A stretch of 64,000 nucleotides of DNA. Origin: an uncultured Flavobacteriales bacterium (lineage in GTDB: Bacteria > Bacteroidota > Bacteroidia > Flavobacteriales_E > Vicingaceae). This document shows, in pieces, positions 17,592-31,818 of the stretch. The DNA is taken from assembly GCA_905479915.1 (NCBI GenBank), contig CAJQOH010000025.1, positions 124,001 to 188,000 of the forward strand, read 5' to 3'. Numbering within the stretch: the first letter of the stretch is position 1; every line of letters begins with the position of its first letter. The notes below the pieces were generated by a model. That model saw nothing but the letters and a program-made list of their open reading frames with translations, searched no databases and had not been told where the DNA came from. The position numbers and the translations under genes were made by a program.

Positions 17592-17659
17592 CTTAACATA
17601 AACTTAACATAGCAATAACCATCTCGTAACGCTTTGTTTTTATGTACACGATATTTTTG
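17592..17659 (+). promoter_or_regulatory. Candidate Pho box and promoter of the porin gene
   Basis: Direct repeats CTTAACA at 17592-17598 and 17603-17609 have an 11-base period. Two weaker units continue in phase (AATAACC 17614-17620, CGTAACG 17625-17631). A -7 element TATTTTTG is at 17652-17659. The gap from the last weak unit is 20 bases, and from the second strong unit 42. The geometry matches PhoB-type boxes (7-base half-sites, 4-base spacer). The assignment to phosphate control is inferred from the genes carrying it. Confidence 0.7.
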
Positions 17660-17697
17660 CGGTGTATTAATAAAACAGATAATATTAAATTAAAGAG

Positions 17698-18909
17698 ATG
17701 AAAAAGATTAAATTATTGTTAGCATTAGTTGCTCTTTCAACAGCAGTATTTGCGCAAGATGTAACAAATAATAAATTTGGAAAAGGTCTTTACAATGTAA
17801 TTGCCAAAGATAGTTCTTACAGTATGAAATTTGCTATAAGAATGCAATCACTATATGTAGGAGATTGGACAATAAATGATTCTACAGGGGTAAGCGCAGG
17901 TAATTCGCAGTTTTTAATAAGAAGAGCAAGATTAAAGTTTGGAGGTTTTGCATTTAGTCCAAAAGTTAAATATAAGGTAGAATTAGGATTAACAAATAGA
18001 GATATTTCTGGAGCAAGTTCTCACACAAAGGGTGCTCCAAGGGTAATACTAGACGCGGTAGTAAAGTGGAATTTTTATAAAAACTTCACTTTATGGGCTG
18101 GACAAACAAAACTACCAGGAAATAGAGAACGTGTTGTTTCTTCTGCCAACTTACAGTTTGTTGACCGATCTAAATTGAATTCTAATTTTAATATTGACCG
18201 TGATATGGGTGCTCAGTTAAGGCATTATTTTAAACTTGGAAAAAACTTTACTGTTAGAGAAATTGTTTCTGTATCTCAAGGAGAAGGAAGAAATGTTACA
18301 GATCCTAATTTAGGAGGATACCAGTATACAAGTAGAATAGAAATTTTACCTTTTGGAAAGTTTGAAAGTAAAGGAGATTATGTTGGTTCTTCTGTAAAAA
18401 GAGAAGAGAAGCCAAAGTTAGCTTTAGGAGGTACTTATGATTTACATGATAGAGCTGTAAAAAATAAAAGTAACCAAGGTAGTTATATGACTAATGATAG
18501 TCCTTCAGGATATTTTGAAACTGATATAACTACTATTTTTGGAGACATGATGTTTAAGTATGGAGGTTTTTCTGTGATGGCTGAATATGCAATGAGAACC
18601 GCAGCAAAAGATAGTGTTGCAAACGTTGATGGAACTAAAACAGGACAAGTTGTTGGTGTTGGAACAGGAATGAATTTCCAGATGGGCTACATGTTTAAAA
18701 ACAATTGGGAAGTAGCAGGAAGATATACTTTAACTGATTGGGATACTGATGTTACAGGAAATGAGGCACAGACTCAATATACTTTTGGAATAGGAAAATT
18801 CTTTAAAGGGCATAAGCTTAAAGTACAATCTGATGTTACTTACAGCACAACAGAAGAAAGTGCAGATAGTGATTTGATATACAGATTACAGTTTGATTTA
18901 CACTTCTAA
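17698..18909 (+). CDS. Phosphate-selective-type porin (OprO/OprP family)
   Basis: This 403-residue outer-membrane beta-barrel has a signal peptide (MKKIKLLLALVALSTAVFAQ). The porin_O_P family is indicated by the early FAIRMQSLYVGDW strand, FLIRRARLKFGGFAF, KYKVELGLTNRD, and AGQTKLPGNRERVVSSANLQFVDRS-type loop. The last strand ends YRLQFDLHF with a terminal Phe, as in outer-membrane barrels. Pseudomonas homologues are anion/phosphate channels induced by phosphate starvation. The upstream 11-base-period repeats support phosphate control here. It is a single gene followed by a strong terminator. Confidence 0.9.
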   Translation: MKKIKLLLALVALSTAVFAQDVTNNKFGKGLYNVIAKDSSYSMKFAIRMQSLYVGDWTINDSTGVSAGNSQFLIRRARLKFGGFAFSPKVKYKVELGLTNRDISGASSHTKGAPRVILDAVVKWNFYKNFTLWAGQTKLPGNRERVVSSANLQFVDRSKLNSNFNIDRDMGAQLRHYFKLGKNFTVREIVSVSQGEGRNVTDPNLGGYQYTSRIEILPFGKFESKGDYVGSSVKREEKPKLALGGTYDLHDRAVKNKSNQGSYMTNDSPSGYFETDITTIFGDMMFKYGGFSVMAEYAMRTAAKDSVANVDGTKTGQVVGVGTGMNFQMGYMFKNNWEVAGRYTLTDWDTDVTGNEAQTQYTFGIGKFFKGHKLKVQSDVTYSTTEESADSDLIYRLQFDLHF

Positions 18910-18962
18910 CTCGAAAAATTAGAGTGTTAATTAATGAGTCTTTTACTTTATTATTTTCACAT

Positions 18963-18997
18963 AAAAAAGCCCAGCTAATTTAGCTGGGCTTTTTTGT
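18963..18997. terminator. Strong terminator after the porin gene, probably bidirectional
   Basis: A stem AGCCCAGCTA / TAGCTGGGCT with a 3-base loop is flanked by an A-run before and a T-run after. It ends the porin transcript and could also stop the leftward carbonic anhydrase transcript. Confidence 0.85.
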
Positions 18998-19008
18998 TTT
19001 TAAGAATT

Positions 19009-19116
19009 CGTCTTTGCGATGAGTGAAGAGTAACGAAATGAAGAAGCTATCTCATAAAGAAAGAGGGATTGCTTCAATGCACTACGCCAATACTTGTGCT
19101 TTTCGCAATGATGTCT
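19009..19116. repeat. Degenerate REP-like palindromic repeat
   Basis: The left arm begins CGTCTTTGCGATGAGTGAAG and the right arm ends TTCGCAATGATG, with inner arms GAAGAAGCTATCTC and GGGATTGCTTC that pair imperfectly. This looks like a worn copy of the intergenic palindrome with ends like GTCATTGCGA that is scattered in many Bacteroidota genomes. It fills the space between the porin terminator and the carbonic anhydrase stop codon. Only one copy was recognised here. Confidence 0.6.
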
Positions 19117-19117
19117 T

Positions 19118-19720
19118 TTATAAGAATGTTACCTCACCTGTTTCTACAGAATAAGAAGCTCCAACAATTTTTATTTCTCCATTTTGTTCCATGTCATTTA
19201 GAATAGAACTTTCTTTTCTTATTCTTTCAATTGTAAGTGCCACATTTTTAATTGCAACAGTTTCAATATTATCTGGAGTCATTTCTCCACCAATAGCATT
19301 AACTGCGGGTTTAATTTTTTCTAATAAAGGTGTAATATTTCCTAATTCAACACCTTGACAAGCAGCGGTAACAGCACCACATTTTGTATGACCCATAACC
19401 ACCACAAGTTTAGATCCTGCTACTTTACAAGAATATTCCATTGAACCCAATACATCTTCGTTAACAATATTTCCAGCAACACGAGCACCAAAAATATCAC
19501 CAACTCCTTGGTCAAAAACCAACTCTAAAGGAGCTCTTGAATCTATACAACCCAAAACAACAGCAAATGGAGCCTGTCCTGCAGATGTAATTTTAACTTG
19601 TTCGCCAAGGTTTCTGTTTAACATTGATTGAGAAACGTATCTTTTGTTTCCATCTTTTAATCTTTCTATCGCCTCTGAAGGGCTTATTTTTTCTTGAATT
19701 TCTTTTGTTAATGTTTCCAT
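19118..19720 (-). CDS. Beta-class carbonic anhydrase
   Basis: This 200-residue enzyme interconverts CO2 and bicarbonate. Zinc ligands Cys58, His111 and Cys114 are present, with the catalytic Asp60-Arg62 pair (GCIDSRAP, GHTKCGAV). Length is normal for beta-carbonic anhydrases. The gene lies 5 bases after the SulP transporter gene, so the two are co-transcribed. Such pairs supply and interconvert bicarbonate for carboxylation reactions. There is no signal peptide, so it is cytoplasmic. Confidence 0.95.
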   Translation of the reverse strand: METLTKEIQEKISPSEAIERLKDGNKRYVSQSMLNRNLGEQVKITSAGQAPFAVVLGCIDSRAPLELVFDQGVGDIFGARVAGNIVNEDVLGSMEYSCKVAGSKLVVVMGHTKCGAVTAACQGVELGNITPLLEKIKPAVNAIGGEMTPDNIETVAIKNVALTIERIRKESSILNDMEQNGEIKIVGASYSVETGEVTFL

Positions 19721-19725
19721 TTTAT

Positions 19726-21276
19726 TTATTTTTTTATTGAACCAATAATATTTACCTCTATATTTCTTGTCGCTGCATTGATCTTAAAATCTTCAAAAAT
19801 CTCAGTAACATCCGGATGAATTAATTCAGATTTACTTGCGTCAATTTCCACAACAGCACCATCTTGAATAGCCAAAAGAGAGTTTTGTATCGCTGCCTTT
19901 TTCAAAAAGGTAACATCTTTAGGTAGGGTGATCTTAAGCTTATCTTTGCTTCCATCTTGCTCTTTTTCAATTTTATAAGGAATTTTAAAGTTGTTTCTAA
20001 ACAGAATCATGAAAATCGCAATTACCATACCTAAGGCAATACCCCATAACAAGTCAATAAAAACAATTCCTGCTATTGTAATTACAAAAGGAAGAAACTG
20101 CTCCTTACCCTCTCCATACATCTTTTTGAATAGAGCTGGTTTGGCAAGCTTATAACCAACAACTAATAGTATAGCAGCAAGAGTTCCTAAAGGAATATAG
20201 TTAAGCACTTTAGGAATGGCAACAACACTTATTAGAAGTAAAATACCATGCATTATTGTTGAGGCTTTTGTTTTTCCACCCGACTGTTGATTTGCAGAAC
20301 TTCTAACGATTACCTGAGTAACAGGAAGACCACCAATAAACCCGGCAATAATATTTCCAACACCTTGAGCTTTAAGCTCCCTGTTCGTTGGGGTATTTCT
20401 TTTAAGCGTATCTTGTTTGTCTGATGCTTCAACACATAACAGCGTTTCTAAACTTGCTACAACAGCTATAACAATTGCAGTTGTATAAACTTTAGGATTG
20501 CTTAATGCATTAAAATCAGGAAAAGAGAAGTTCCCAATAAAACTATTTAAACTTTCGCTAATAGGCACTTTTACTAAATGATCTGCAGCAATAGCAAAAG
20601 ATTCATTACCAGCAAAAATAATGTTAAGAACAATTCCCATTACCACAGCAACCAATGGTCCCTGCACAATTTTTGTGAACTTTTGTTTTTTCATAAACGA
20701 AGTTTCCCAAGCAATAAGAATAACCAAAGAAACTACAGAAACAACAAGAACCCCAGGGCTGATGAAGTCTAACATATTCCATAATTCAGAAATAGTATTT
20801 TGACCATCAGGCTGAATAAAACCAAAATCACCTTCAGGGTCTTTATCATAACCAAAAGCATGAGGAATTTGTTTCATAAATATTAGGATACCAATTCCTG
20901 CTAGCATTCCATGGATAACAGACGAAGGGAAAAAGTAGGCTATAATTCCTGCTTTAGCAAACCCCATTAATAACTGAATTACTCCAGCAATTATGACTGC
21001 AACAAGAAATATTTCAAAACCTCCTAAATCTGTAATTGCATTTAAAACAATTACAGCAAGACCAGCAGCAGGACCACTAACCCCTAGCGGAGAACCACTT
21101 AAAGCCCCAACAATTATTCCTCCTATGATACCACTAATAAGCCCAGCAAAAAGAGGAGCTCCTGAGGCAAGGGCTATTCCTAAACAAAGAGGCATAGCAA
21201 CTAAAAAGACAACAATACTTGCTGGGATATCGTCTTTAAAGTTTTTAAACGGGTTTAATTTATTATTTGAATTCAT
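19726..21276 (-). CDS. SulP-family anion (probably bicarbonate) transporter
   Basis: This 516-residue protein has 10 or more transmembrane helices with SulP signatures (DIPASIVVFLVAMPLCLGIALASGAP near 15-40, then GPAAGLAVIV) and a C-terminal STAS-like cytoplasmic domain (around 430-516). SulP members exchange sulfate, bicarbonate or other anions. Co-transcription with a carbonic anhydrase makes bicarbonate uptake the best guess; sequence alone does not fix the substrate. No 11-base Pho-type repeat was seen upstream, unlike most other genes in this region. Confidence 0.92.
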   Translation of the reverse strand: MNSNNKLNPFKNFKDDIPASIVVFLVAMPLCLGIALASGAPLFAGLISGIIGGIIVGALSGSPLGVSGPAAGLAVIVLNAITDLGGFEIFLVAVIIAGVIQLLMGFAKAGIIAYFFPSSVIHGMLAGIGILIFMKQIPHAFGYDKDPEGDFGFIQPDGQNTISELWNMLDFISPGVLVVSVVSLVILIAWETSFMKKQKFTKIVQGPLVAVVMGIVLNIIFAGNESFAIAADHLVKVPISESLNSFIGNFSFPDFNALSNPKVYTTAIVIAVVASLETLLCVEASDKQDTLKRNTPTNRELKAQGVGNIIAGFIGGLPVTQVIVRSSANQQSGGKTKASTIMHGILLLISVVAIPKVLNYIPLGTLAAILLVVGYKLAKPALFKKMYGEGKEQFLPFVITIAGIVFIDLLWGIALGMVIAIFMILFRNNFKIPYKIEKEQDGSKDKLKITLPKDVTFLKKAAIQNSLLAIQDGAVVEIDASKSELIHPDVTEIFEDFKINAATRNIEVNIIGSIKK

Positions 21277-21395
21277 TTTTTTTATTTTAGCTTATACCCC
21301 AAGCTGTTATATTAAAAGGGGCATTGTTAATGTAGAGAAAATCCCTACTTAAATTATTTTTTGAAATAGTTTGCTTTTATAAAAGCAAGGAAGCT

Positions 21396-21695
21396 TTAAG
21401 CTTCTGGAGGGGGGTTAACAATATCTGTTACGATATCTATAAAATGCTTGCCTCTAAAAGAATAGAGGAAGTTTTCGTTATTAAGTTCAGAAAGCTCTTT
21501 ATCTTTAGATAAAAGATACTCTTCTAAATCATCAAAATCTTTTTCTGATTTGTTTTCTTTTTGTTCTTCTTCTGTTGGTTTTTCACAACACAACAGCTCG
21601 CAATCAAATGTATAAAATGAGGATATGGCAGAAACAACACTTGGCGCAGCGATAACAAGCATTAATGTAATTGCAACTATTTTGATAATTCTCAT
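21396..21695 (-). CDS. Small acidic exported or membrane protein, unknown function
   Basis: This encodes 99 residues beginning MRIIKIVAITLMLVIAAPSVVSA, a signal peptide or anchor. After a Cys-bearing segment FDCELLCCEK, the rest is a very acidic stretch (TEEEQKENKSEKDFDDLEEYLLSKDKELSEL) ending NPPPEA. No family was recognised. GTG and ATG alternatives lie just upstream. A TATATTTG -7 element on this strand (21708-21701) sits within a few bases of the start, so the transcript may be leaderless. It is divergent from the Na/Pi cotransporter and shares its control region, so a link to phosphate or metal stress is possible. Confidence 0.6.
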   Translation of the reverse strand: MRIIKIVAITLMLVIAAPSVVSAISSFYTFDCELLCCEKPTEEEQKENKSEKDFDDLEEYLLSKDKELSELNNENFLYSFRGKHFIDIVTDIVNPPPEA

Positions 21696-21786
21696 CATCA
21701 CAAATATACAAAGTCTTGTAAAACAGAAGTGTTAAAACAATATAAAATTGTAAAAACAAAGACCTGGGCACTTTAAAAAGAGAAGA

Positions 21787-21843
21787 CTTAACAATTACTT
21801 AACATTGTTTTTATTTAGGAATAACAATGCTGCAATATTTTTG
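21787..21843 (+). promoter_or_regulatory. Candidate Pho box and promoter of the Na/Pi cotransporter gene
   Basis: CTTAACA at 21787-21793 and 21798-21804 form an exact 11-base-period pair. A -7 element TATTTTTG is at 21836-21843, 31 bases after the second unit. The phosphate link is direct in function: the controlled gene encodes a Na/phosphate cotransporter. Confidence 0.72.
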
Positions 21844-21865
21844 CTACAAATTAAAATTGATAAAA

Positions 21866-23563
21866 ATGGAATTTGGATTTATTGAGGTATTAAAATTAAT
21901 AGGAGCTCTTGGCTTTTTCATTTATGGAATGAAAATAATGAGTGAGGGTATTCAAAAAGCTGCAGGAAGCAGCATGAGAAGAATACTTTCGACCATGACT
22001 AAGAATAGGTATTTAGGTGTTTTAACAGGGTTTATTGTAACTTGCCTGGTTCAGTCTTCTTCTGCTAGTACTGTAATGGCAGTTAGTTTTGTAAATGCGG
22101 GACTACTTTCTTTAGTTGAGTCTGCAGGTATTATGTTGGGAGCAAATATTGGAACAACTATTACAGGTTGGTTAGTGGCTGTTTTAGGATTTAAAGTGAA
22201 AATAGCCGCTATGGCACTTCCGTTATTGGCTATTGGTGTGCCAATGCTGTTTATGAGAAAAAACAAAGTAAAGCACATCGGTCAATTTATTGTTGGTTTT
22301 GCTATTTTATTCTGGGGGCTTTCTGAGTTAAAGCATGCTGTTCCTGATGTAAAACACAACCCAGAAGTATTGAATTTTTTAGGAGCTTACGCTGACAGTG
22401 GGTTTTTTAGTAACCTTTTCTTTATTCTTGTTGGAACGATTTTAACAATTGTTGTTCAGTCATCTAGTGCATCAATGGCGTTAACACAAACGCTTTGTTT
22501 TAGTGGTGTAATTCCTTTTGAAGTTGCTGCGGCAATGATTTTGGGTGAAAACATTGGTACAACAATTACTGCCGAGTTAGCATCCTTGCCTGCAAATGTT
22601 CACGCAAAAAGGTCTGCGAGAATTCACTCGATGTTTAATATTGTTGGGGTTTCCTGGGCCGTTTTATTAATATCATTTACACCAGCTTTAGACGGAGTAA
22701 GAGGTGTTGCTATGAATTGGTTTGGGTCTGCTGATCCAATGACAGCAGAGGGAGCACCTATGGGGTTAGCAATTTTTCATACAGCCTTTAATTTTGTGAA
22801 TGTTTTAATTATGATTTGGTTTGTTCCATTGCTTGTTAAGCTGGCTATTAAATCGGTTAAATCTAAAGGAGATGTTGACGAAGAGTATAGTTTAGATTAT
22901 ATTAACTCTGGAATGATGGCAACACCAGAAATGTCCTTGATGGAAGCTCAAAAAGAGGTTTCTAAGTTTGGAGAAGTTGTTAAGAGGATGAATGCAATGG
23001 TTAAGAGTTTAGTTGCTGAAAACTTAGAAAACAAAGAGGTAAGTAAGGTTTTAGCTAGGGTTAAAAAATATGAAGACATAACAGACAACATAGAAAAAGA
23101 TGTTGCAGATTATTTAACTAAAGTTTCTCAAAATGAAATGACCGAAAGTTCTTCATTGAAAGTAAGAGGTATGTTAAGTATTGTTGGAGACTTAGAACGA
23201 ATAGGAGACATATATTATCAAATGTCTAAAGGAATTGAAAGAAAGATAGAGGGGAAGGTATATTTTACTCCTGAACAGCGCAAAAACATTTTAGACATGT
23301 TTGATTTAGTTGAAGCAAACCTAACTACAATGTGTCAAAACCTTTCAGGTAGCTATAGTGATGTTACAATGCTTAAGGCTCAAGAACAAGAGACCACATT
23401 AAATAAGTATAGAAAGACATTAAGAAAAGAACATTATGCAAGTGTAGAGAAAGGAGATTACAATTTCCAAAGTGCTGCTGTTTATTCTGATTTGTTTAAC
23501 TCTTTAGAGAAAGTGGGAGATCATACAATTAATGTGACAGAAGGAATTACTGGGGAACATTAG
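21866..23563 (+). CDS. Na/Pi cotransporter family protein with PhoU-like domain
   Basis: This 565-residue protein has two Na/Pi cotransporter repeats in about 8 membrane helices. The paired signature QSSSAST (around 64) and QSSSASM (around 205) marks the duplicated core, with GANIGTTITGW and GENIGTTITAE. The C-terminal third (around 345-565) is a helical PhoU-like domain. YjbB/NptA-type proteins move phosphate with sodium; bacterial members can import or export it. The ATG at 21866 is preferred over an ATG 13 codons upstream, because the -7 element at 21836-21843 would leave that start without a leader. A perfect hairpin terminator follows. Confidence 0.94.
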   Translation: MEFGFIEVLKLIGALGFFIYGMKIMSEGIQKAAGSSMRRILSTMTKNRYLGVLTGFIVTCLVQSSSASTVMAVSFVNAGLLSLVESAGIMLGANIGTTITGWLVAVLGFKVKIAAMALPLLAIGVPMLFMRKNKVKHIGQFIVGFAILFWGLSELKHAVPDVKHNPEVLNFLGAYADSGFFSNLFFILVGTILTIVVQSSSASMALTQTLCFSGVIPFEVAAAMILGENIGTTITAELASLPANVHAKRSARIHSMFNIVGVSWAVLLISFTPALDGVRGVAMNWFGSADPMTAEGAPMGLAIFHTAFNFVNVLIMIWFVPLLVKLAIKSVKSKGDVDEEYSLDYINSGMMATPEMSLMEAQKEVSKFGEVVKRMNAMVKSLVAENLENKEVSKVLARVKKYEDITDNIEKDVADYLTKVSQNEMTESSSLKVRGMLSIVGDLERIGDIYYQMSKGIERKIEGKVYFTPEQRKNILDMFDLVEANLTTMCQNLSGSYSDVTMLKAQEQETTLNKYRKTLRKEHYASVEKGDYNFQSAAVYSDLFNSLEKVGDHTINVTEGITGEH

Positions 23564-23586
23564 CAGATAACCTTAACTTAATATTG

Positions 23587-23654
23587 CTTAACAATAGCAT
23601 AACAGAAGCGTAAAATTTATTTTACGCTTCTGTTGTTTTTAACTACTTACTTTG
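23587..23654 (+). promoter_or_regulatory. Candidate Pho box and promoter of the small carboxypeptidase-like gene
   Basis: CTTAACA (23587-23593) and CATAACA (23598-23604) have an 11-base period. An additional CTTAATA lies 10 bases upstream. A -7-like TTACTTTG is at 23647-23654, 42 bases after the second unit, the same gap as at the porin promoter. The terminator hairpin of the preceding gene sits between box and -7 element. Confidence 0.6.
23603..23640 (+). terminator. Terminator after the Na/Pi cotransporter gene
   Basis: A perfect 14-base stem (23603-23616 with 23619-23632; arms CAGAAGCGTAAAAT and ATTTTACGCTTCTG) is followed by TTGTTTTT. The left arm overlaps the end of the upstream Pho-type repeat. 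Confidence 0.85.
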
Positions 23655-23678
23655 CATCATAAATTAAAACATTTAAAG

Positions 23679-23996
23679 ATGAAAACAATTGTAACAATTA
23701 TTGCGCTATTTACTTTTACAATGTCGTTTGGAAACAACAACAACGAAAAGAATGTAAAAATGTTTTCTATTAGTGGAAAAGTAGTAGATGCTAAAGAAAG
23801 CTTAACAGGAGTTAAGGTTTGGTTAGATGGAAAAGAAACAACTGTTTATACTGATTTTGATGGAAACTTTACAATTAACAATGTTGTTGAAGGAGAACAT
23901 AAAGTTGCATTCAGTTTAATTACATATAAAAACAAAGAAGTTGTTTTAAACACTAAGGGTGATGAAAAGATTACTGTAGAGTTAAACGAAAAATAA
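23679..23996 (+). CDS. Small exported carboxypeptidase-regulatory-like domain protein
   Basis: This 105-residue protein has a signal peptide (MKTIVTIIALFTFTMSFG) and a single CarboxypepD_reg-like beta-sandwich (around 30-105), with SGKVVDAKESLTGVKVWLDG and TDFDGNFTINNVVEG. The same fold begins many TonB-dependent receptors, including the one in this region, but here it stands alone. The ATG at 23679 begins the signal peptide; a nine-codon extension is less likely. The preceding 11-base repeats place it among the phosphate-type genes. Stand-alone role unknown. Confidence 0.85.
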   Translation: MKTIVTIIALFTFTMSFGNNNNEKNVKMFSISGKVVDAKESLTGVKVWLDGKETTVYTDFDGNFTINNVVEGEHKVAFSLITYKNKEVVLNTKGDEKITVELNEK

Positions 23997-24014
23997 TTAA
24001 GATCTTAAATATTG

Positions 24015-24045
24015 AAATCCCCTGTAACCGCAGGGGATTTTTTTT
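24015..24045 (+). terminator. Terminator after the carboxypeptidase-like gene
   Basis: Stem AAATCCCCTG / CAGGGGATTT with a 6-base loop is followed by eight T in total. Confidence 0.88.
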
Positions 24046-24060
24046 GAATTAAATATTATT

Positions 24061-24525
24061 ATGAGAGCAAGAATAACAATTTTAGCAGCGCTTTTATTTG
24101 TTGCTGTTTTAGGGTTTGGGCAAAAAATAATTAAACAAGAAGGTGTTTATGTTAATGCAGAATCATTAAAAAAATATACGGGTGTGTATATTTCTTATTA
24201 TGATAATGGCGAAAAAGAGGCTGTTTATTCTGTAAAAAAAGGCGTAGAAGATGGAAAGGTAGAGTTCTATTATTTTTCTGGAGAAATTATGGAGCAAGGA
24301 GCTTTTGAAGATGGTGAAAAAAGCGGAAAATGGGTGCGCTGGTCTCAATCAGGAATTAAGTTGGCAGAAGCTTTTTATAACAAAGGAGAGAAAGATGGGG
24401 AGTGGCAAATTTGGGATGAAAGAGGGGTTAAGCGATATTTAATGAATTATGCCCAAGGAAAGAAAACAGGAACTTGGATTATGTGGGACGAGAAAGGGCA
24501 AATATCTAATATGAAAGATTATTAA
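24061..24525 (+). CDS. Exported MORN-repeat / YwqK-like protein
   Basis: This 154-residue protein has a signal peptide (MRARITILAALLFVAVLGFGQ) and about five MORN-like repeats (SYYDNGEKEAVYSVKKGVEDG, EFYYFSGEIMEQGAFEDGEKSGKW and so on). Function is unknown. It lies after a strong terminator without its own Pho-type repeat, so it may have a separate promoter in the 15 bases before it or be read by leak-through. The three-unit repeat that precedes the next gene begins at its stop codon. Confidence 0.85.
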   Translation: MRARITILAALLFVAVLGFGQKIIKQEGVYVNAESLKKYTGVYISYYDNGEKEAVYSVKKGVEDGKVEFYYFSGEIMEQGAFEDGEKSGKWVRWSQSGIKLAEAFYNKGEKDGEWQIWDERGVKRYLMNYAQGKKTGTWIMWDEKGQISNMKDY

Positions 24526-24577
24526 ACTTAGCTTAACTTTAACTTAACCCTTTCTGACGTTGCTTCTACTAACTTTA
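24521..24577 (+). promoter_or_regulatory. Candidate Pho box and promoter of the atypical response regulator gene
   Basis: Three units ATTAAAC (24521-24527), CTTAACT (24532-24538) and CTTAACC (24543-24549) follow at 11-base steps. A -7-like TAACTTTA is at 24570-24577, exactly 20 bases after the last unit. The first unit overlaps the stop codon of the MORN gene. Confidence 0.65.
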
Positions 24578-24586
24578 TAGATAGAA

Positions 24587-25264
24587 ATGACACCAACAAT
24601 AAACATATTTAGCGCAAACGAATCAGAGCTGAAATTAACCACTATTCTTTTTGAAAAAGAAGGGTTTAAGGTTTTAGCTCACTCTCATGTAAATGAGGAG
24701 ACAATTAATGCGGTTTATAAGAATAACCCAGATGTTGTTTTATTGGATTTAGAGATTTTTAACTCTGATGGGATTGAGTTTTGTTATCAGCTTAAAAAAG
24801 AGAATAACCTAAATACCTTTGTTGTCCTTTTTTCTGAGCAATATGATGATTATATTCAAATAGAGGCGTTTAAGGCCGGGGCTGATGACTATGTTGTTAG
24901 ACCGGTTAATTCAAGGGTTTTTGTAAAAAAGATAAAAGCGTTACTTTCTAGAAAGCCAACAAAAACCAAATCAACAAAAGCAAAATTACTTTCTTATAAC
25001 AATCTAAAAATAGATAGAGAGAGCTATGTTGTTATTTTAGATAATAAGAATTACTCATTACCAAGGAAAGAGTTTGAAATGCTTTTTTTATTGATTAACG
25101 AGCCTCAAAAGGTCTTTTCTAGAGATGAAATTTACAAAGCTGTTTGGGATAAGGCGGCCTCAAAAAACGATAGAATAATTGATGTTCATATTAGAAAGAT
25201 AAGAGAAAAAATAGGGCAGAATATTATTAAGACCATAAAAGGCGTAGGCTACCAGTTGGCATAA
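24587..25264 (+). CDS. OmpR/PhoB-type response regulator with atypical receiver
   Basis: This 225-residue protein has an N-terminal receiver-like domain and a C-terminal winged-helix domain (around 130-225: LPRKEFEMLFLLINEPQKVFSRDEIYKAVW, IDVHIRKIREKIG, TIKGVGYQL). The acceptor Asp54 is present, but the usual acidic pair is Ala10-Asn11 and the conserved Lys is Arg105. It may therefore be poorly phosphorylated or work without phosphate. No kinase gene is adjacent. It resembles the PhoB-like protein at 30007 in the DNA-binding half. Its own promoter carries the repeat, so it may be a second layer in the same regulon. Confidence 0.9.
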   Translation: MTPTINIFSANESELKLTTILFEKEGFKVLAHSHVNEETINAVYKNNPDVVLLDLEIFNSDGIEFCYQLKKENNLNTFVVLFSEQYDDYIQIEAFKAGADDYVVRPVNSRVFVKKIKALLSRKPTKTKSTKAKLLSYNNLKIDRESYVVILDNKNYSLPRKEFEMLFLLINEPQKVFSRDEIYKAVWDKAASKNDRIIDVHIRKIREKIGQNIIKTIKGVGYQLA

Positions 25265-25390
25265 CTTATTTTGAGCAAAACAGCACAATTCTTTTTTGTA
25301 CCTTATTGCATAAAACGGATGCCAGGATGGTTATAAAGCATAGGCATAACCAACCATATTATTTTTAAGCTTAATAGCAGGGTTGTTGTC

Positions 25391-28195
25391 CTACCCTATC
25401 AAATACTTAACTCCAAAACTGAAGGTTGCCCCATTTTTATAAGAGTTAAAGATGTATTCTTCACCTTTATAATTGTATGTTTTCTTTATTGTTGGGTTTA
25501 GAATGTTTTGTGCTTTAAAACGTAGGCTAAACTTCTTTCCAATTCTTTTGTTGATGTTAAAATCTAATTGGTTTACTGGTTGTTGGTAAACGTTTGGTGT
25601 TGCTCCAAGAATAACCACAGCAATTTTTTCTCCTGATACATTATAGCTTAGATTCGCAGAAAACCCTAAAGAGTCATTATTGTACCCTAAAAATATATTA
25701 ACAATATATGGGGACTGACCAAATAATGCCCTTGTATCATCAGCATTTGGATCGTTTGCTCTAATCAACTCAAGCTCTTGATCATCAATACCAACTTCAG
25801 AATAAACATAAGTAAAGTTACCTCCAAAGCTAAACGTGTTAATGCTGTCCGAAATAAAACCAAGGGTCTTTTTAATTTCGAACTCAGCACCATAGACAGT
25901 CGCTTTGTCAATGTTTCTCCAAGTAAGCTCAGCATTTTGTGCTTGAGTATTAAAAACTAGCTCTATAGGGTTTGTAAATGACTTATAGAAACCCCCAATA
26001 GAAATTATTTCTCCAAAACCAGGGAATGTTTCTAGCCGAAGGTCAAAATTATCAACTAACGTTCTTTCTAAATTTGGGTTTCCAATAATGGTCCAGTTGG
26101 TAGAGAAATCATATGTTGCAAAAGGAGCAATTTCTCTAAAAGTTGGCCTAGCCAATGTTTTAGAGTAAGAGGCTCTAATGTTGGTGTTTTCTTTAAGTGC
26201 ATAAGAGGTGTTTAATGCGGGTAAAATATCTAGCTCATTGAGCTCTCCTAATTCCTGTTCTTGATCGAAACTTCTTACTAATATGTTTGTTGTTTCTAAT
26301 CTAGCACCACCAACCGCTCTAAATTTACTGGTTGCCCAGATGTCTGCCATTAAGTATCCTGCAAAAATTTGCTGATCAGCTCCATAACTATTTCTTCTTT
26401 CGGTAGCCTCTTCAATATATAAGTAGTCTGAAACAGGGTTTCCTGCAGTTGGAAGTGTCATGTTATTACTGCTTAAATATTCTGCAACATTTCCATCATA
26501 ATTTAAGTTTCCTTGTGATCTGTAGTTGTAACGACTTTCTGTTAAAACTCTCTCTTGTACTAAAAAAGCACTACCGAATTTAATTTTAGATGTTTTTCCA
26601 TCTTTTTCTGCGATATCAAATTCAAAATTCAGTTTTCCATCTCCAGTTGTTTGAGATAAATCTCTATAATATCTTGTGGGCACAGGATAAATGGATGCCT
26701 GGATGCTATAATTGTTTGTGTCAGCCTCTACAATGTAATCATTAGAAAAGTACCTTAAATCTGGTTGTTTTTGTGAAGATTCTGACCATGCCCAAATCCA
26801 GTCAACTTTTAGTTTTTTTAGGCTTTCAAATTTATGCTCTCCTGTTGTTTGGTAACTGGCTAAAGCATTTTGTTCATACTCTAAAGCTCTTGTTTGGAAG
26901 AATAAACCTGTTTGTTCTGCAGGTATTTCACCTTCTTGAAATGTTGTTGTACTAATTCCGTTTTGGTTACGGATGTAATTAAACCCCAATTTATGGTTTT
27001 CAGAAAGTCTGTAAGAAACCGTTGCAAAAGCTCCCCATAAAATGTTTTCTTGAGACCTCGTATCTGTTAATGTTCTTGATGCGTTTAGTTCATTAACGTC
27101 ATCCACAGACCCTGTTAATTCATACCTGTTTGTAAAAGCATCGCTTTTTCTGTGATTAAATTTTTTAGAGTAAGAAAGGCCTGTTACAAAACCTATTTCT
27201 TTTCCAAACAGCCTTTTTTGATTTCCCACAGATAGAGAATAGCTTTGGTTAAGAGATGAGTTTTTTTCGTCTACATCCATTTCTTTATTGAATGACTTAC
27301 CTATAGCAGAAAGCCTTGTATTGTCTACAAAAAGAGCTGGTATTCTTTGAACAGAACTTGGTGCATCTCTAGTTCCATTATCAAAACCAAGAGCATCCAT
27401 ACCTCCACCCTGATAAGTTAAAAAGTCGCTTTTAAAACTAGACTCTGTATTGTAACCTAGAGAGGTGGAAAACTGAAAAGTAAATGCTTCAGGAAAATCC
27501 TTTGTTTCAATATCAACTAGTCCGCCAGTAAAACTTCCTGGGAGATCAGGGCTAAAAGACTTGACCACTTTCATGTTTTCAATCATGTTGGTAGGAAATA
27601 GATCTAATTGAACTGCGTTTCTATTGGGGTCTAACCCTGGAATTTCAGCTTTATTTAATGTGGTTTTACTATAACGATCACTTAAGCCCCTTACATAAAC
27701 ATATTTTCCCCCTTCAATTGTAAGCCCTGTAACTCTTTTGGCTGCGGAAGCAGCATCGCTATCACCTCTTTTTGCAATTTCTTTAGCGCCAATTGCCTCC
27801 ATTACAGTTGAACTCTTTTTCTTTACATTAAGTAAGTAAGCTTCATTGTTTCTTTCTACTTTAGCTGAAACCGTAAAAGTTTCAATTTCCATAGAAGAAG
27901 TTCCTAAAGTAAAGTTGTGAGTGCTTGTTTCTCCATCAACAACAGTAATGGTTGCAGAATCAGAAGAGAACGAAATGTATGAAGAGACCACTGTATAGGT
28001 TCCTGCAGCAACATTTTCTATTTTATATTCCCCAAAAATATCAACCATAGAACCTGTAGTTGTTCCCTTTAGCAATACGGTTGCTCCGATTAGCTCTTCT
28101 CCTTCTGAACTTGCTACTTTTCCTTTAATGGTTCCTTGGGCAAAAACTGTTCCTGTTAAACAGGCTGTTATTATTATTGATAATACTTTTTTCAT
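25391..28195 (-). CDS. TonB-dependent outer-membrane receptor
   Basis: This 934-residue receptor has a signal peptide (MKKVLSIIITACLTGTVFAQ), a carboxypeptidase-regulatory-like domain (around 22-110), a plug domain (around 120-240, with MEAIGAKEIAKRGDSDAASA and VYVRGLSDRYS) and a beta-barrel to the C terminus. It has no SusD-type partner beside it. Instead, a beta-helix lipoprotein with the same promoter type lies upstream in the same direction. The Pho-type repeat suggests import of a phosphorus source, such as an organophosphate or a phosphorylated polymer; the substrate is inferred, not shown. The ATG at 28195 gives the signal peptide; an earlier start is 7 codons upstream. Confidence 0.92.
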   Translation of the reverse strand: MKKVLSIIITACLTGTVFAQGTIKGKVASSEGEELIGATVLLKGTTTGSMVDIFGEYKIENVAAGTYTVVSSYISFSSDSATITVVDGETSTHNFTLGTSSMEIETFTVSAKVERNNEAYLLNVKKKSSTVMEAIGAKEIAKRGDSDAASAAKRVTGLTIEGGKYVYVRGLSDRYSKTTLNKAEIPGLDPNRNAVQLDLFPTNMIENMKVVKSFSPDLPGSFTGGLVDIETKDFPEAFTFQFSTSLGYNTESSFKSDFLTYQGGGMDALGFDNGTRDAPSSVQRIPALFVDNTRLSAIGKSFNKEMDVDEKNSSLNQSYSLSVGNQKRLFGKEIGFVTGLSYSKKFNHRKSDAFTNRYELTGSVDDVNELNASRTLTDTRSQENILWGAFATVSYRLSENHKLGFNYIRNQNGISTTTFQEGEIPAEQTGLFFQTRALEYEQNALASYQTTGEHKFESLKKLKVDWIWAWSESSQKQPDLRYFSNDYIVEADTNNYSIQASIYPVPTRYYRDLSQTTGDGKLNFEFDIAEKDGKTSKIKFGSAFLVQERVLTESRYNYRSQGNLNYDGNVAEYLSSNNMTLPTAGNPVSDYLYIEEATERRNSYGADQQIFAGYLMADIWATSKFRAVGGARLETTNILVRSFDQEQELGELNELDILPALNTSYALKENTNIRASYSKTLARPTFREIAPFATYDFSTNWTIIGNPNLERTLVDNFDLRLETFPGFGEIISIGGFYKSFTNPIELVFNTQAQNAELTWRNIDKATVYGAEFEIKKTLGFISDSINTFSFGGNFTYVYSEVGIDDQELELIRANDPNADDTRALFGQSPYIVNIFLGYNNDSLGFSANLSYNVSGEKIAVVILGATPNVYQQPVNQLDFNINKRIGKKFSLRFKAQNILNPTIKKTYNYKGEEYIFNSYKNGATFSFGVKYLIG

Positions 28196-28213
28196 TGTGT
28201 TATTTTTATGCTG

Positions 28214-28270
28214 CAAAGAAAATTAGAGTTCATAAATCTTCAGTTAATCAAATGTTAAGTCTCTGTTATA
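28214..28270 (-). promoter_or_regulatory. Candidate Pho box and promoter of the TonB receptor gene
   Basis: On the minus strand three units TATAACA (28270-28264), CTTAACA (28259-28253) and ATTAACT (28248-28242) follow at 11-base steps. A -7-like TTTCTTTG is at 28221-28214, exactly 20 bases after the last unit. Confidence 0.68.
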
Positions 28271-28360
28271 AGTGCCGGTATGTAATAAAATTATTGCCTC
28301 TTGGGCTTAGGCATATAAATTCTCCTAACTGTATGATTACTATAGGCTTTAAGTAATAAA

Positions 28361-28388
28361 AAAAGCCCCTGCGGCTACAGGGGCTTTT
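28361..28388 (-). terminator. Terminator after the beta-helix lipoprotein gene
   Basis: Stem AAAAGCCCCTG / CAGGGGCTTTT with a 6-base loop is followed on the minus strand by a T-rich run. It separates the lipoprotein transcript from the TonB receptor promoter. Confidence 0.85.
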
Positions 28389-28407
28389 AGTTTTGTTTAA
28401 TTTAATA

Positions 28408-29763
28408 TTAAGGGAATGTTAAAGTCCACCCTTGTGCCCAGTTAGTTCCGTCAAATGCACCAACATAAGTTACATTATCATACCACGCATCTGCAGATGC
28501 TGTTCCTGTGCCTAATGCTGCCCCAGGAACTGGGTTTGCACTTGTAATAGATGCTGCAGTAGTGCTCACATTTGAAATGCTTGCGTGTCCTGATAAATCA
28601 ACACCATTATTGTCTACAATGTTATCTTGTCCTATTGCTGAAAGAACAATTCCAGCAAACTTTAACTGCCCAGCATCTAAACGAGCTTTAGAGTCTTCAC
28701 CAGAAGCAAGGTCTTCAATATCAATTCCTTTTCCAAAGTTGTGGAATACTGAGTTGTGGTATTCTCCACCCGCATTGTCTCTAAATGTTAGGGCTCTACT
28801 TGTTCCATTTCCAATGTATGTTGCGTTGTAGATTACTGGTGTAGCATATGGTGTTCCATCTTCAGGAGAAGTTCCTCCATCGTGCTCTCCACCTCTGTCA
28901 GAGTTAGCATTTTCAATTGCAAGCCAGAACTGACCTTTTCCTCTATAACCTTGGTCGTAATCGAAAGAGTCATCTAAAACATTTGATACTAAAATGTGCT
29001 TTAAGTTTGGCGCTCCACCAAAAAATTCAACACCATCATCAGCATTAGCAACAACCTCTATGTGGTGAATTGTTGTTCCAGAACCTACTCCACCAAGAGT
29101 TAAACCGTTTATTTCATTTCCTGCACCAATATCAGTTCCACCATGTCTAATAGAAACATAGCACAAAGTACCTGAATTATCGGCATCATTAGCCCCACCA
29201 TACGAACCTCTTGTTTCTGAAGTTGGAATTCCCTCAATGTTTTGGCTAGAAGGAACAGTGTTTAATACTGCATCTCCTAATAACATTAATCCTCCCCACT
29301 GACCTGTTGTTGTCATAGGAACAGAACCATCTAAAGGGTCTGCTTCAAATGTGAAAATAATTGGTTGAGTAACTGTTCCACAAGCGTTAATTACACCACC
29401 TTTAGCAACGATTAGTGCGGATGCATTTGCTCCAGTTCCTGGTTTTCCTTTTATAACTGTTCCAGGCTGTATTGTTAATGTTTGCCCAGAGTTTACAAAA
29501 ACGAACCCATCTAATAAATAAATGTTATCGTTGGTCCAAGTTGTTGTTCCTGTTCCGCTACCGTTGTCTGCAACTGTTATTGTGTTACTTGCTGGAAGAA
29601 CAGGTGTTACAGCATACGTACAAGACCCGTCATCTTTTTCTGCATCAGCACTATAGTTCTCTGCTGTAAGGTCTGTACAACCTTCCTTTTTTGAACATGA
29701 AGTTAATAGACTTCCTAATCCAATTGTAATCACTGCTACAAGTAATAAGTTTTTTGTTTTCAT
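28408..29763 (-). CDS. Lipoprotein with Cys-bracketed acidic repeat and beta-helix domain
   Basis: This 451-residue protein has a lipoprotein signal (LLTSC, Cys near 23). A short acidic module follows, CTDLTAENYSADAEKDDGSC, a motif seen in many Bacteroidota surface proteins. The rest is a right-handed beta-helix (around 60-440) with recurring G-x-x-I/V strands and a VEFFGGAPNLKHILVSN segment. Homologues are often labelled as multidrug transporters, which the sequence does not support. The protein has its own Pho-type promoter and precedes the TonB receptor, so it may be the surface partner that binds its substrate. The function is inferred from position. Confidence 0.82.
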   Translation of the reverse strand: MKTKNLLLVAVITIGLGSLLTSCSKKEGCTDLTAENYSADAEKDDGSCTYAVTPVLPASNTITVADNGSGTGTTTWTNDNIYLLDGFVFVNSGQTLTIQPGTVIKGKPGTGANASALIVAKGGVINACGTVTQPIIFTFEADPLDGSVPMTTTGQWGGLMLLGDAVLNTVPSSQNIEGIPTSETRGSYGGANDADNSGTLCYVSIRHGGTDIGAGNEINGLTLGGVGSGTTIHHIEVVANADDGVEFFGGAPNLKHILVSNVLDDSFDYDQGYRGKGQFWLAIENANSDRGGEHDGGTSPEDGTPYATPVIYNATYIGNGTSRALTFRDNAGGEYHNSVFHNFGKGIDIEDLASGEDSKARLDAGQLKFAGIVLSAIGQDNIVDNNGVDLSGHASISNVSTTAASITSANPVPGAALGTGTASADAWYDNVTYVGAFDGTNWAQGWTLTFP

Positions 29764-29798
29764 TTTTTCAATATTTAGTTTTATAATTTTTTACTCTG

Positions 29799-29866
29799 CA
29801 AAGAAAGGTGCCAATTGTTATTTGATGATGAATGGAATCTTATACTTGCCTTAACTTCGTGTTAAG
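29799..29866 (-). promoter_or_regulatory. Candidate Pho box and promoter of the beta-helix lipoprotein gene
   Basis: On the minus strand CTTAACA (29866-29860) and GTTAAGG (29855-29849) have an 11-base period, with a weak third unit at 29844-29838. A -7-like TTTCTTTG at 29806-29799 lies 42 bases after the second unit (31 after the third). The same -7 octamer is used by the TonB receptor. Confidence 0.6.
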
Positions 29867-29942
29867 AATAAGTGTTTTGAAAAGCGGTTTTAAAGATGTT
29901 TTTGTTTTATAACCTCTAACAATAACAAGGATTAAACAATTA

Positions 29943-29988
29943 ATTAATATTAAATTAACACGTGAGAAAAACAGACGTTGTATCTTCG
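29943..29988 (+). promoter_or_regulatory. Candidate Pho box and promoter of phoB
   Basis: ATTAATA (29943-29949) and ATTAACA (29954-29960) have an 11-base period, with another ATTAAAC just upstream. A -7-like TATCTTCG is at 29981-29988, exactly 20 bases after the last unit. This predicts autoregulation of the phoB-phoR pair. Confidence 0.6.
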
Positions 29989-30006
29989 TACTAAAATTAG
30001 ATTGAT

Positions 30007-30684
30007 ATGAGCAAAGAAAAAATATTGTTAGTTGATGATGAGCCAGACATCATTGAGTTTTTAAGCTATAATTTAACCAAGGAAGGCTACGATGTTTTTA
30101 CTGCTAGTAGCGGTACTGAAGCCATAGAAGTTGCAAAGGCCAAAAATCCAGACTTAATTGTTTTAGATGTGATGATGCCTGAAATGGACGGAATAGAAAC
30201 ATGTCATGAATTAAGAAACACTGAAGGGCTCAAAGATGTTTTGATTGCCTTTTTAAGTGCAAGAGGAGAAGATTATTCACAAGTTGCCGGATTTGATGCT
30301 GGTGCAGATGACTATATTGCTAAGCCGATAAAACCAAGACTATTAATAAGCCGTGTAAAAGCGATTTTAAGAAGGGCTTCTGACGGAGGAAAAGAAGCCG
30401 TTTCTGAAACAGAAGCCGGAATTAAAATAGATAGAGAAAAGTATCTGGTTTATAAAGATGGGGAAGAATTTTCTTTTCCTAAAAAAGAGTTTGAATTATT
30501 GTCTTTATTGTTATCTAAACCAGGGAAAGTATTTACTAGAGATGTAATTTTGAGCAGTGTTTGGGGGGGTGAAGTTGTTGTTGGAGATAGAACAATTGAC
30601 GTACACATAAGAAAGCTTCGAGAAAAATTGGGAGATAATTACATTACAACAGTAAAAGGAGTTGGTTATAAGTTTGATGCATAA
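30007..30684 (+). CDS. PhoB-like response regulator
   Basis: This 225-residue OmpR-family regulator has an intact receiver (ILLVDDEPD with the acidic pair, acceptor Asp54 in LIVLDVMMPEMDG, Lys in DDYIAKPIKP) and a winged-helix domain (around 130-225) with FPKKEFELLSLLLSKPGKVFTRD and TVKGVGYKF. It is followed by a PhoR-type kinase gene. The pair resembles PhoB-PhoR, and its promoter carries the same repeat as the phosphate-type genes, so it is the best candidate for the factor that binds them. OmpR-family pairs can have other signals, so phosphate sensing is an inference. Confidence 0.92.
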   Translation: MSKEKILLVDDEPDIIEFLSYNLTKEGYDVFTASSGTEAIEVAKAKNPDLIVLDVMMPEMDGIETCHELRNTEGLKDVLIAFLSARGEDYSQVAGFDAGADDYIAKPIKPRLLISRVKAILRRASDGGKEAVSETEAGIKIDREKYLVYKDGEEFSFPKKEFELLSLLLSKPGKVFTRDVILSSVWGGEVVVGDRTIDVHIRKLREKLGDNYITTVKGVGYKFDA

Positions 30685-30789
30685 ATGAGTTAAAAATCTA
30701 AAGCTCATAAAAGTTTATTTTTGTAGTAGAAAACAACAGTGATTAAAACTTTTAACTTTACAAACTTTCTAACCTGATAAACTAAACAA

Positions 30790-31818
30790 TTGAAAGACTT
30801 AACCCCAAATGGAATAGCCCTAAGAATTTCTGTTCTTGTTTCAGTAGCAATTACCTTGTTGGTTTTTATTTTGGAGTATTTAGTTTCTTCGGTTAATTAT
30901 ACGTTGATTTCTTTGGTTTTTCCAGTAACTTTTTTGGCCTCTTATGTAGGTTTTAGAATCGCGGTAGAAAAATTCATTTATAAAAAAATAAAGGTTATTT
31001 ATCGAACCATTCACAAGTTAAAACTTAAAAAAGGAGAGGAAGAAAAGGAGTTCAGTTTAACTCAAATTCAAACAGAAGTAGAAGACTGGGACAAATTAAA
31101 TAAGGAGGAAATAGAACGATTAAAGGGGTTAGAAAACTATAGGAGAGAGTTTGTTGGAAATGTTTCTCACGAGTTAAAAACACCAATTTTTAATATTCAA
31201 GGATATTTATTAACCCTTTTAGAGGGCGGGTTAGAGGATCCCAACATTAACGTTAAATACTTAGAAAAAGCAAACAAAGGTGTTGACAGGATGATTTCGT
31301 TAATAGAAAACCTAGATGAAATATCAAAGTTAGAGTCTGGGGCAATTGAAATAAAAATGGAAAAGCTGGATATTGCTTCAGTTATAAAAGAGGTTTCAGC
31401 ATCTCTTGAAATGAGCGCTAAAAAGAATAATATTTCTATTGTTTTTGTTGACGAGCCTAATAAACCAATATGGGTAAAAGCTGACGCTCAAGGAATAAAT
31501 CAGGTTTTAGTTAATTTAATTGTAAACTCGCTAAAATATGGGGTTGAGGATGGGGAAACATTAATTAAGCTTTTTGATATGCATGACAACATCCTGATTG
31601 AGGTTGCTGACAATGGTCAAGGAATAGCTCCAGAGCATTTGCCTCGTTTGTTTGAGCGGTTTTATAGAACAGACAAGGGAAGAGCTAGAGAAACTGGAGG
31701 GACAGGATTAGGTCTGTCTATAGTAAAGCACATTATTGAGGCGCACAATCAAACAATTAATGTTAGGAGTACAGAAGGAGTTGGATCTACCTTCTCTTTT
31801 ACCTTAAAGAAAGCATAA
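30790..31818 (+). CDS. PhoR-like sensor histidine kinase
   Basis: This 342-residue kinase has two N-terminal membrane helices (around 13-33 and 37-57) with almost no periplasmic loop. A short linker follows, then HisKA with phosphoacceptor His127 (VSHELKTP) and a HATPase domain with NLIVNSLKYG, DNGQG and GGTGLGLS. The tiny extracytoplasmic loop is typical of PhoR, which senses through transport partners and PhoU-like proteins. The start is TTG, with no better ATG nearby. It lies 105 bases after phoB; a TATTTTTG at 30716-30723 could give a second promoter. It converges on cysQ. Confidence 0.92.
   Translation: MKDLTPNGIALRISVLVSVAITLLVFILEYLVSSVNYTLISLVFPVTFLASYVGFRIAVEKFIYKKIKVIYRTIHKLKLKKGEEEKEFSLTQIQTEVEDWDKLNKEEIERLKGLENYRREFVGNVSHELKTPIFNIQGYLLTLLEGGLEDPNINVKYLEKANKGVDRMISLIENLDEISKLESGAIEIKMEKLDIASVIKEVSASLEMSAKKNNISIVFVDEPNKPIWVKADAQGINQVLVNLIVNSLKYGVEDGETLIKLFDMHDNILIEVADNGQGIAPEHLPRLFERFYRTDKGRARETGGTGLGLSIVKHIIEAHNQTINVRSTEGVGSTFSFTLKKA

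Follow-up and report, generated by a model that had tools for sequence, protein, structure and literature searches.

The 64,000-nucleotide (nt) stretch analysed here (the window: contig CAJQOH010000025.1, positions 124,001 to 188,000) belongs to the 3.57-Mb, 97.5%-complete genome of an uncultured Flavobacteriales bacterium (GCA_905479915.1) and contains, in tandem on the minus strand, two genes that are the subject of this work, a lipoprotein gene and a gene for a TonB-dependent receptor. The lipoprotein gene (28408..29763) comes first and codes for a beta-helix protein of 451 amino acids resembling ElpS and FII, assigned from the open reading frame (ORF), the predicted structure and the invariant acidic residues; the receptor gene (25391..28195) follows, and its 934-amino-acid product has, from the N- to the C-terminus, a carboxypeptidase-regulatory-like domain (CarboxypepD_reg_2, PF13715), a plug (PF07715) and a barrel (PF00593), the last two scoring over the Pfam cut-off. 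A strong intrinsic terminator (28361..28388, minus strand) with 12 pairs, 6 of them G-C, a T tail and a folding energy of -19.5 kcal/mol (z -4.2) lies between them. A preliminary description of this DNA had already reported both ORFs in tandem with a terminator in between, and this layout is confirmed. Divergent from the lipoprotein gene, on the plus strand, are a PhoB-type response regulator (30007..30684; best NCBIfam match TIGR02154 PhoB, 219 of 296 bits) and a PhoR/PnpS-type histidine kinase recognised by domain profiles (30790..31818). The receptor reaches 33.5 bits with the SusC/RagA model TIGR04056, far below the cut-off of 368, and the SusD families PF14322 and PF07980, both detected in a Bacteroides control, have no matches across the whole genome; the earlier proposal that the receptor is paired with this lipoprotein instead of SusD is therefore true genome-wide, beyond the locus alone. 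The closest relatives, in Vicingus and other Flavobacteriales metagenome genomes, have lipoproteins 78-89% identical and an unchanged gene order; the host belongs to the Vicingaceae or is a close relative.

Each gene of the pair is preceded by a Pho-box-like operator and a -7 element of its own, all on the minus strand. Upstream of the receptor gene, three 11-nt repeats, ATAACAGAGAC TTAACATTTGA TTAACTGAAGA (28237..28269), match exactly at spacings (D) of 26 and 37 and are followed by the octamer TTTCTTTG (28214..28221); upstream of the lipoprotein gene, the two main repeats TTAACACGAAG TTAAGGCAAGT (29844..29865; D=48, one mismatch) are succeeded by a third, weaker repeat, ATAAG, and by the same octamer at 29799..29806. 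The operator and -7 element of phoB, TTAATATTAAATTAAC-21-TATCTTCG (29944..29988, plus strand), were identified by a genome pattern search and by conservation. All three regions are retained in nine Vicingaceae loci, where the receptor upstream keeps aTAACnGAnnc TTAACATTTGn TTAACnnnnnn and the octamer, the lipoprotein upstream keeps TTAACatGAA-nATAAA-nn-AAGtATAAG and the octamer, and the phoB upstream keeps TTAAT-N6-TTAAC; the repeats that had been noticed before each gene are thus direct repeats of TTAAC type.

The operator layout, 11-nt [T/A]TAAC repeats placed 26, 37 or 48 nt before the -7 element, is not limited to this family. In the upstream regions of 283 homologous genes, for which every locus was used, 75 cases of a second repeat with a T[AT]NNTTTG element were measured; in 65 of them the two lie 15, 26, 37, 48 or 59 nt apart, a count inflated by the kinship of the loci; these favoured spacings correspond to 4 plus a multiple of 11, and shuffled sequence gave about 0.02 cases per distance, so that the phasing of the repeats is not due to chance. 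The rule was seen in Vicingaceae, Flavobacteriaceae-like, Sphingobacteria-like, Saprospiraceae and other groups; in Flavobacterium-like loci, where phoR-phoB points away from receptor-lipoprotein, the operator spacing is identical. Direct repeats of 11 nt are what defines a Pho box (PMC4415409), and the motif independently determined by DNA affinity purification sequencing for PhoP of the flavobacterium Riemerella is TTTAACA (PMC9603813); the literature on B. fragilis PhoB gives no operator consensus, and a flavobacterial transcriptome paper has no usable promoter motifs in its text. The in-phase repeats, and the presence of the same operators before phoB, a porin gene and a Na/Pi cotransporter gene of the window, support the Pho-type control proposed earlier for the two genes, and the pair is very likely under such control. 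The geometry itself, as read from the DNA, appears to be a new and precise signature of phosphate control in Bacteroidota.

Of 395 Bacteroidota genomes, 249 have a lipoprotein homologue (E<=1e-20) and 257 a receptor homologue (E<=1e-45); comparison of the two match lists by hand placed both in 241 genomes, the lipoprotein only in 8, the receptor only in 16 (at least two of these cases at contig ends) and neither in 130. The co-occurrence that the preliminary description had suggested looking for is evident from these counts. The receptor gene is at most 1.5 kb from the lipoprotein gene in 89 of the 92 loci having more than 3.5 kb of flank on both sides, always on the same strand, while other receptor matches around these loci amount to one in 1926 kb; the loci were collected by the presence of the lipoprotein, which leaves the receptor count unbiased, and are related by descent, hence non-independent. 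Gene order is free, either gene coming first (49 vs 48 loci), and the lipoprotein tree requires at least five changes of order; adjacency has therefore outlasted repeated rearrangement. Outside Bacteroidota, the pair is present in Verrucomicrobiota, an acidobacterium, Ignavibacteria, Rhodothermota (by record titles) and Pseudomonadota. This distribution, drawn from genome comparison, shows an ancient and tightly linked pair.

Clustering of the neighbouring genes revealed PhoB-type regulators in 14 loci outside Vicingaceae, MORN-repeat proteins beside the pair in 10 loci and ExbD (PF02472) near it in 13 (L073, L082, L084, L092, L102, L109, L112, L114, L115, L153, L154, L177 and L178). The vicinity of ExbD suggests a dedicated energising module, and in Pseudoalteromonas the genes ExbB-ExbB-ExbD-TonB directly precede the pair; the recurrence of energy-coupling genes supports active import. 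No recurring phosphatase cluster was present among the neighbours. Stand-alone carboxypeptidase-regulatory-like and MORN-repeat proteins form a module that recurs with the pair in distant Bacteroidota (L141, L142, L145, L148).

The lipoprotein has a lipobox, LTSC, ending at Cys23, after which it reads CSKKEG only; an acidic run follows the cysteine in 24 of 42 lipobox homologues. By pattern, a lipobox was assigned to these 42 of 77 homologues and a C-terminus of the type IX secretion system (T9SS) to 20, and Pfam found Por_Secre_tail in 25 family members; anchor type changed at least six times on the lipoprotein tree, and both routes, lipid anchor and T9SS, can lead to the cell surface. Tandem arrays of two to four helices occur in some family members. 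In its own genome, the lipoprotein gave only short N-terminal matches, which are not paralogues; the N-terminal module of residues 28-50, GCTDLTAENYSADAEKDDGSCTY, is found also in several unrelated secreted proteins (contigs C6, C19, C24). The statement that lipoproteins of this kind are often misnamed transporters was not borne out, the annotations seen among homologues being ‘hypothetical protein’, ‘Ig-like domain-containing protein’ and, once, ‘MreB’. This last label, ‘cell shape-determining protein MreB’, is attached to a homologue on a Hymenobacter plasmid (NZ_CP110137.1, 35639-36850) and is an apparent misannotation.

No Pfam, NCBIfam or PDB-sequence match was obtained for the window lipoprotein, and a profile of the 77 sequences matched no PDB sequence and, for the helix domain, no Pfam family. 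The AlphaFold2 model built with the 77 homologues is a right-handed beta-helix (predicted local distance difference test 92.2, predicted template-modelling score 0.86), in line with the fold first assigned to this protein. Pectate lyase Pel9A was the sole Foldseek match under 1e-3 (E 6.5e-4), and VIA-align gave Z 20-23 to a large number of beta-helix proteins, most of which are enzymes or phage tailspikes with anionic polysaccharides as their targets; the nearest solved folds include PL6, PL9 and AlgE enzymes. The Foldseek ranking was set aside as a guide to the substrate, since lyases, hydrolases, epimerases, NosD and phage tailspikes all gave similar VIA Z (20-23). Matches of the model indicate the fold and not the function, the beta-helix being common to many unrelated functions.

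Eleven acidic residues (E177, E217, D242, D243, E246, D264, D265, D268, D270, E293 and D295) are invariant in the 77 homologues, down to 32% identity; the cluster contains a DDxxD motif. Three pairs, D242/D264, D243/D265 and E246/D268, are separated by 22 residues, which corresponds to one helical turn in the model, so that these residues should stack on one face. The alignment contains no invariant Lys or His, and R328 is 91% conserved. Pel9A binds calcium through a set of Asp residues that may be similar to those of the lipoprotein. The simplest, if tentative, reading of this arrangement is a cleft that would contain a divalent metal and grip phosphate or uronate groups. The eleven conserved positions, as deduced from the alignment, appear to be new.

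Two published systems resemble the window pair. In Caulobacter crescentus, ElpS (CC0170) is a proteinase-K-accessible surface lipoprotein of phosphate starvation, encoded beside the TonB receptor CC0171 and genes of the type II secretion system (T2SS), and the pair co-occurs (Le Blastier et al. 2010; PMC2996285). In Flavobacterium johnsoniae, PUSIV comprises Fjoh_0543 (PhoR), 0544 (PhoB), 0545 (a TonB-dependent transporter, TBDT) and 0546 (the lipoprotein FII, related to ElpS), and Fjoh_0545/0546 respond strongly and exclusively to depletion of phosphate, with no induction by lack of nitrogen or iron (Lidbury et al. 2020; PMC8115612); the possibility, raised in the preliminary description, that expression depends on another signal such as iron is countered by these data. 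Induction by phosphate depletion, surface location and abundance are already published for homologous loci (PMC8115612, PMC2996285). The same four genes as in Fjoh_0543-0546 occur in the Flavobacterium-like loci L190, L197, L201 and L205, and homologues from Sphingomonas and Indioceanicola display the exact published order of lipoprotein, receptor and T2SS genes. Judged by gene order and by the homologues in these gene settings, which align with it, the window pair is very likely of the ElpS/FII type and, since PUSIV and ElpS/CC0171 have been described, it belongs to a known kind and is not a new system.

The locus probably represents the Vicingaceae version of this known outer-membrane phosphorus-scavenging pair (ElpS/CC0171, FII/TBDT of PUSIV). 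When phosphate is scarce, PhoR-PhoB would act through PhoB bound to the 11-nt TTAAC repeats, in helical register with the Bacteroidota -7 element, and would switch on both genes of the pair together with phoB, an OprO/OprP-type porin, the Na/Pi cotransporter and a second PhoB-like regulator. The beta-helix lipoprotein, exposed on the surface, would bind, and possibly cut, a phosphorus-bearing anionic substrate by means of its acidic, probably Ca2+-loaded cleft, and the TonB-dependent receptor would then import the substrate or its product. This scheme was built on observed gene content, pairing across phyla, operator architecture, fold and invariant acidic residues; the outer-membrane phosphorus-scavenging role put forward at the outset is supported. 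Metal binding, the class of substrate, a physical complex of the two proteins and import are steps that we infer. That receptor and lipoprotein act jointly as a phosphorus importer is considered likely, if with some reserve; our best guess for the substrate is a phosphorylated or anionic polymer bound through metal ions, phosphate itself being also a candidate; phytate, nucleic acid or another organophosphate, as named in the preliminary description, would fit the evidence alike.

Several points weigh against this scheme. No phosphatase or phosphodiesterase gene adjoins the pair in the window, and no single enzyme type that would name the substrate is recurrently tied to the receptor; the acidic ladder could be structural; the identity with Fjoh_0546 and CC0170 is drawn from gene order and from relatives that share this setting; and, for this organism, Pho regulation and uptake by the pair are predicted from sequence. 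Furthermore, in Caulobacter cc0171 is constitutive, intracellular phosphate was unchanged and the data fit a role in stimulating phosphatases (PMC2996285). A first alternative, proposed for ElpS, makes the lipoprotein a helper or stabiliser of phosphatases outside the cell, while the receptor imports something else or senses, so that the two share one regulon and do not form one transporter. The overproduction of ElpS, which raised phosphatase activity in supernatants, and the different regulation of elpS and cc0171 (PMC2996285), as well as the release of ElpS into the medium, agree with such a role; however, the strict adjacency in 89 of 92 loci through switches of order and the matching Pho operators of the two genes suggest that they work together, and phosphatase genes do not recur in the neighbour clusters, so that this alternative is deemed unlikely.

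A second alternative regards the lipoprotein as a polysaccharide-active beta-helix enzyme, a lyase or hydrolase that liberates the phosphorus in polymers of cell walls or algae, an idea that Lidbury and colleagues put forward for FI/FII. The Pel9A match, the VIA Z of 20-23 to PL6, AlgE, AlgG and GH28 chains and the invariant acidic cluster with its DDxxD, a type of site that binds calcium in Pel9A, are what such an enzyme could display. However, a common beta-helix at 10-14% identity reveals no function, sequence matches in Pfam or PDB are missing even with the 77-sequence profile, and the family lacks an invariant Lys or His for base catalysis, R328 being conserved at 91%; we give this alternative a minor probability, no greater than that of the phosphatase accessory.

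Beyond the scavenging pair as such, a broader possibility, more speculative than the scheme above and rated as less likely than not, is a SusD-independent class of importers for phosphorylated polymers, in which a metal-loaded beta-helix would serve as lid or catalytic partner of the TonB channel, under a phase-locked TTAAC Pho box in Bacteroidota. If true, this class would be present in well over half of the sampled Bacteroidota and in several other phyla, and its novelty would lie in the metal-site mechanism and in the general Pho-box code, the pairing itself being published.

The in-phase operator code was also applied to the whole window and to the genome by pattern searches. In the window it gave nine matches (shuffles: mean 0.4, maximum 3), which precede seven genes: the porin, the Na/Pi cotransporter, a carboxypeptidase-like/MORN pair, the second PhoB-like regulator, phoB, the lipoprotein and the receptor. 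The 3.57-Mb genome contains two exact matches at D=26, three at D=37 and four at D=48, and seven of these nine fall inside one 12.7-kb stretch of the window; two of these sites served to derive the D=26 pattern and are therefore not independent, while the porin, cotransporter and carboxypeptidase-like sites are independent of it. One-mismatch matches elsewhere in the genome were at control level. A loose D=26 search with two mismatches gave 145 matches against 156 in the reversed control, as expected by chance, and for this reason only exact or one-mismatch matches were used; a first pattern with an extra base between the repeats also matched at control level and was dropped. Two exact D=48 operator-like matches lie elsewhere in the genome (C18:44756-44822 and C44:5370-5436, both on the minus strand).

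The genes under this code form a compact Pho island (17593-31818) of porin, cotransporter, secreted proteins, regulators and receptor-lipoprotein pair, the code being nearly absent elsewhere in the genome. Its plus-strand members begin with an OprO/OprP-type phosphate-selective porin family protein (17698..18909; PF07396, 43.1 bits, cut-off 20.9), whose operator with three repeats and -7 element (17593..17659) was found by both the window and the genome search. The Na/Pi cotransporter with a C-terminal PhoU-like domain (21827..23563; PF02690 and PF01895, TIGR00704) probably starts at an internal ATG near 21866, and its operator and -7 element, at D=37, extend over 21788..21843; a D=48 operator and -7 element (23588..23654) precede the genes for a small secreted carboxypeptidase-regulatory-like protein (23652-23996) and a MORN-repeat protein (24061-24525), both recognised by domain matches and both recurring next to the pair elsewhere. 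Despite the presence of PhoB-PhoR, no PstC over the curated cut-off was detected in the genome, the best match being 52.6 of 196 bits (C38:9485-10078); inner-membrane import may therefore rest on the Na/Pi cotransporter, which, with its PhoU-like domain, may stand in place of Pst/PhoU. As neither SusD nor PstC over cut-off is present, the island may be the main phosphate response of the genome. On the opposite strand within the island, a carbonic-anhydrase-like gene adjoins a SulP-family transporter (19118-21276, minus), a possible bicarbonate uptake pair; before the island, in DNA poor in G+C and strongly skewed, a 505-amino-acid protein made up of MORN repeats (PF07661; 15124-16641, minus) is located beside a large multi-PAS histidine kinase (11962-15114).

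The island also encodes the second PhoB-type response regulator (24587..25264, plus strand; domain and family profile matches), convergent with the receptor gene and preceded by an operator with a -7-like element (24533..24577). Its receiver has lost the acidic pair (NIFSANES vs LLVDDEP) and kept the phospho-acceptor Asp, a loss common to most or all Vicingaceae copies. This degenerate paralogue has the same DNA-binding domain (PF00486) as PhoB and resides inside the island, and PhoP of Riemerella has been assigned a redox-regulating role (PMC9603813); the TTAAC operators might then be bound by another OmpR-family regulator answering to a signal other than phosphate. The boxes, however, precede phoB itself, the OprO/OprP-type porin and the Na/Pi cotransporter. 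They are also found ahead of the pair in Flavobacterium-like loci, and the counterpart of these loci in the literature responds to no depletion but that of phosphate, which makes control by another regulator quite improbable. Still less probable is a tandem formed by accident, or a system for the uptake of iron or another metal: iron complexes are a common cargo of TonB receptors, but the co-occurrence and adjacency of the pair, the phosphate-transport genes under the same operator and the indifference of the homologous F. johnsoniae genes to iron depletion (PMC8115612) oppose it, and the identity of an iron receptor was rejected on the operator evidence and the published expression.

The passage of phosphorus compounds across the outer membrane of Bacteroidota is largely unsettled, and the FI, FII and FIII lipoproteins of F. 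johnsoniae are among the most abundant proteins of starvation, with no assigned function. A concrete operator code makes the Pho regulons of Bacteroidota readable from sequence, and eleven named residues, as targets for mutation, turn a vague annotation into simple tests. The breadth of the pair's distribution, the at least six anchor switches and the at least five switches of gene order are likewise new.

With PUSIV, the window locus shares the same four genes side by side, a lipoprotein of the fold type of FII, which was assigned to the pectin-lyase-fold superfamily (IPR011050), and the absence of SusD at the locus; unlike in PUSIV, the lipoprotein gene precedes the receptor gene, separate promoters serve the two genes, a terminator stands between them, and the genome has a single lipoprotein of the family, whereas Flavobacterium has several (FI, FII, FIII). 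The succession of a phosphate-starvation surface lipoprotein and a TonB receptor is also that of ElpS/CC0171; however, the window locus has no T2SS genes, members in Bacteroidota use a lipid anchor or a T9SS domain, and CC0171 is reported to be constitutive. The operators, similarly to Pho boxes of E. coli type, consist of two or more 11-nt direct repeats (PMC4415409), but their core is TTAAC, not of CTGTCAT type, and they are phased to the Bacteroidota -7 element. SusCD and PusCD, the latter also phosphate-controlled, likewise combine a TonB-driven outer-membrane channel with a surface lipoprotein; here, the lipoprotein is a beta-helix and not a SusD, the receptor is far below the SusC/RagA cut-off and SusD is absent from the genome. 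BtuG of Bacteroides is a beta-propeller, not a beta-helix. With BtuB it forms another stable pair of TonB transporter and surface lipoprotein other than SusD, here serving a small nutrient (PMC10404256); its substrate is vitamin B12, and BtuB-BtuG is a functional analogy of the pair described here, not a relative.

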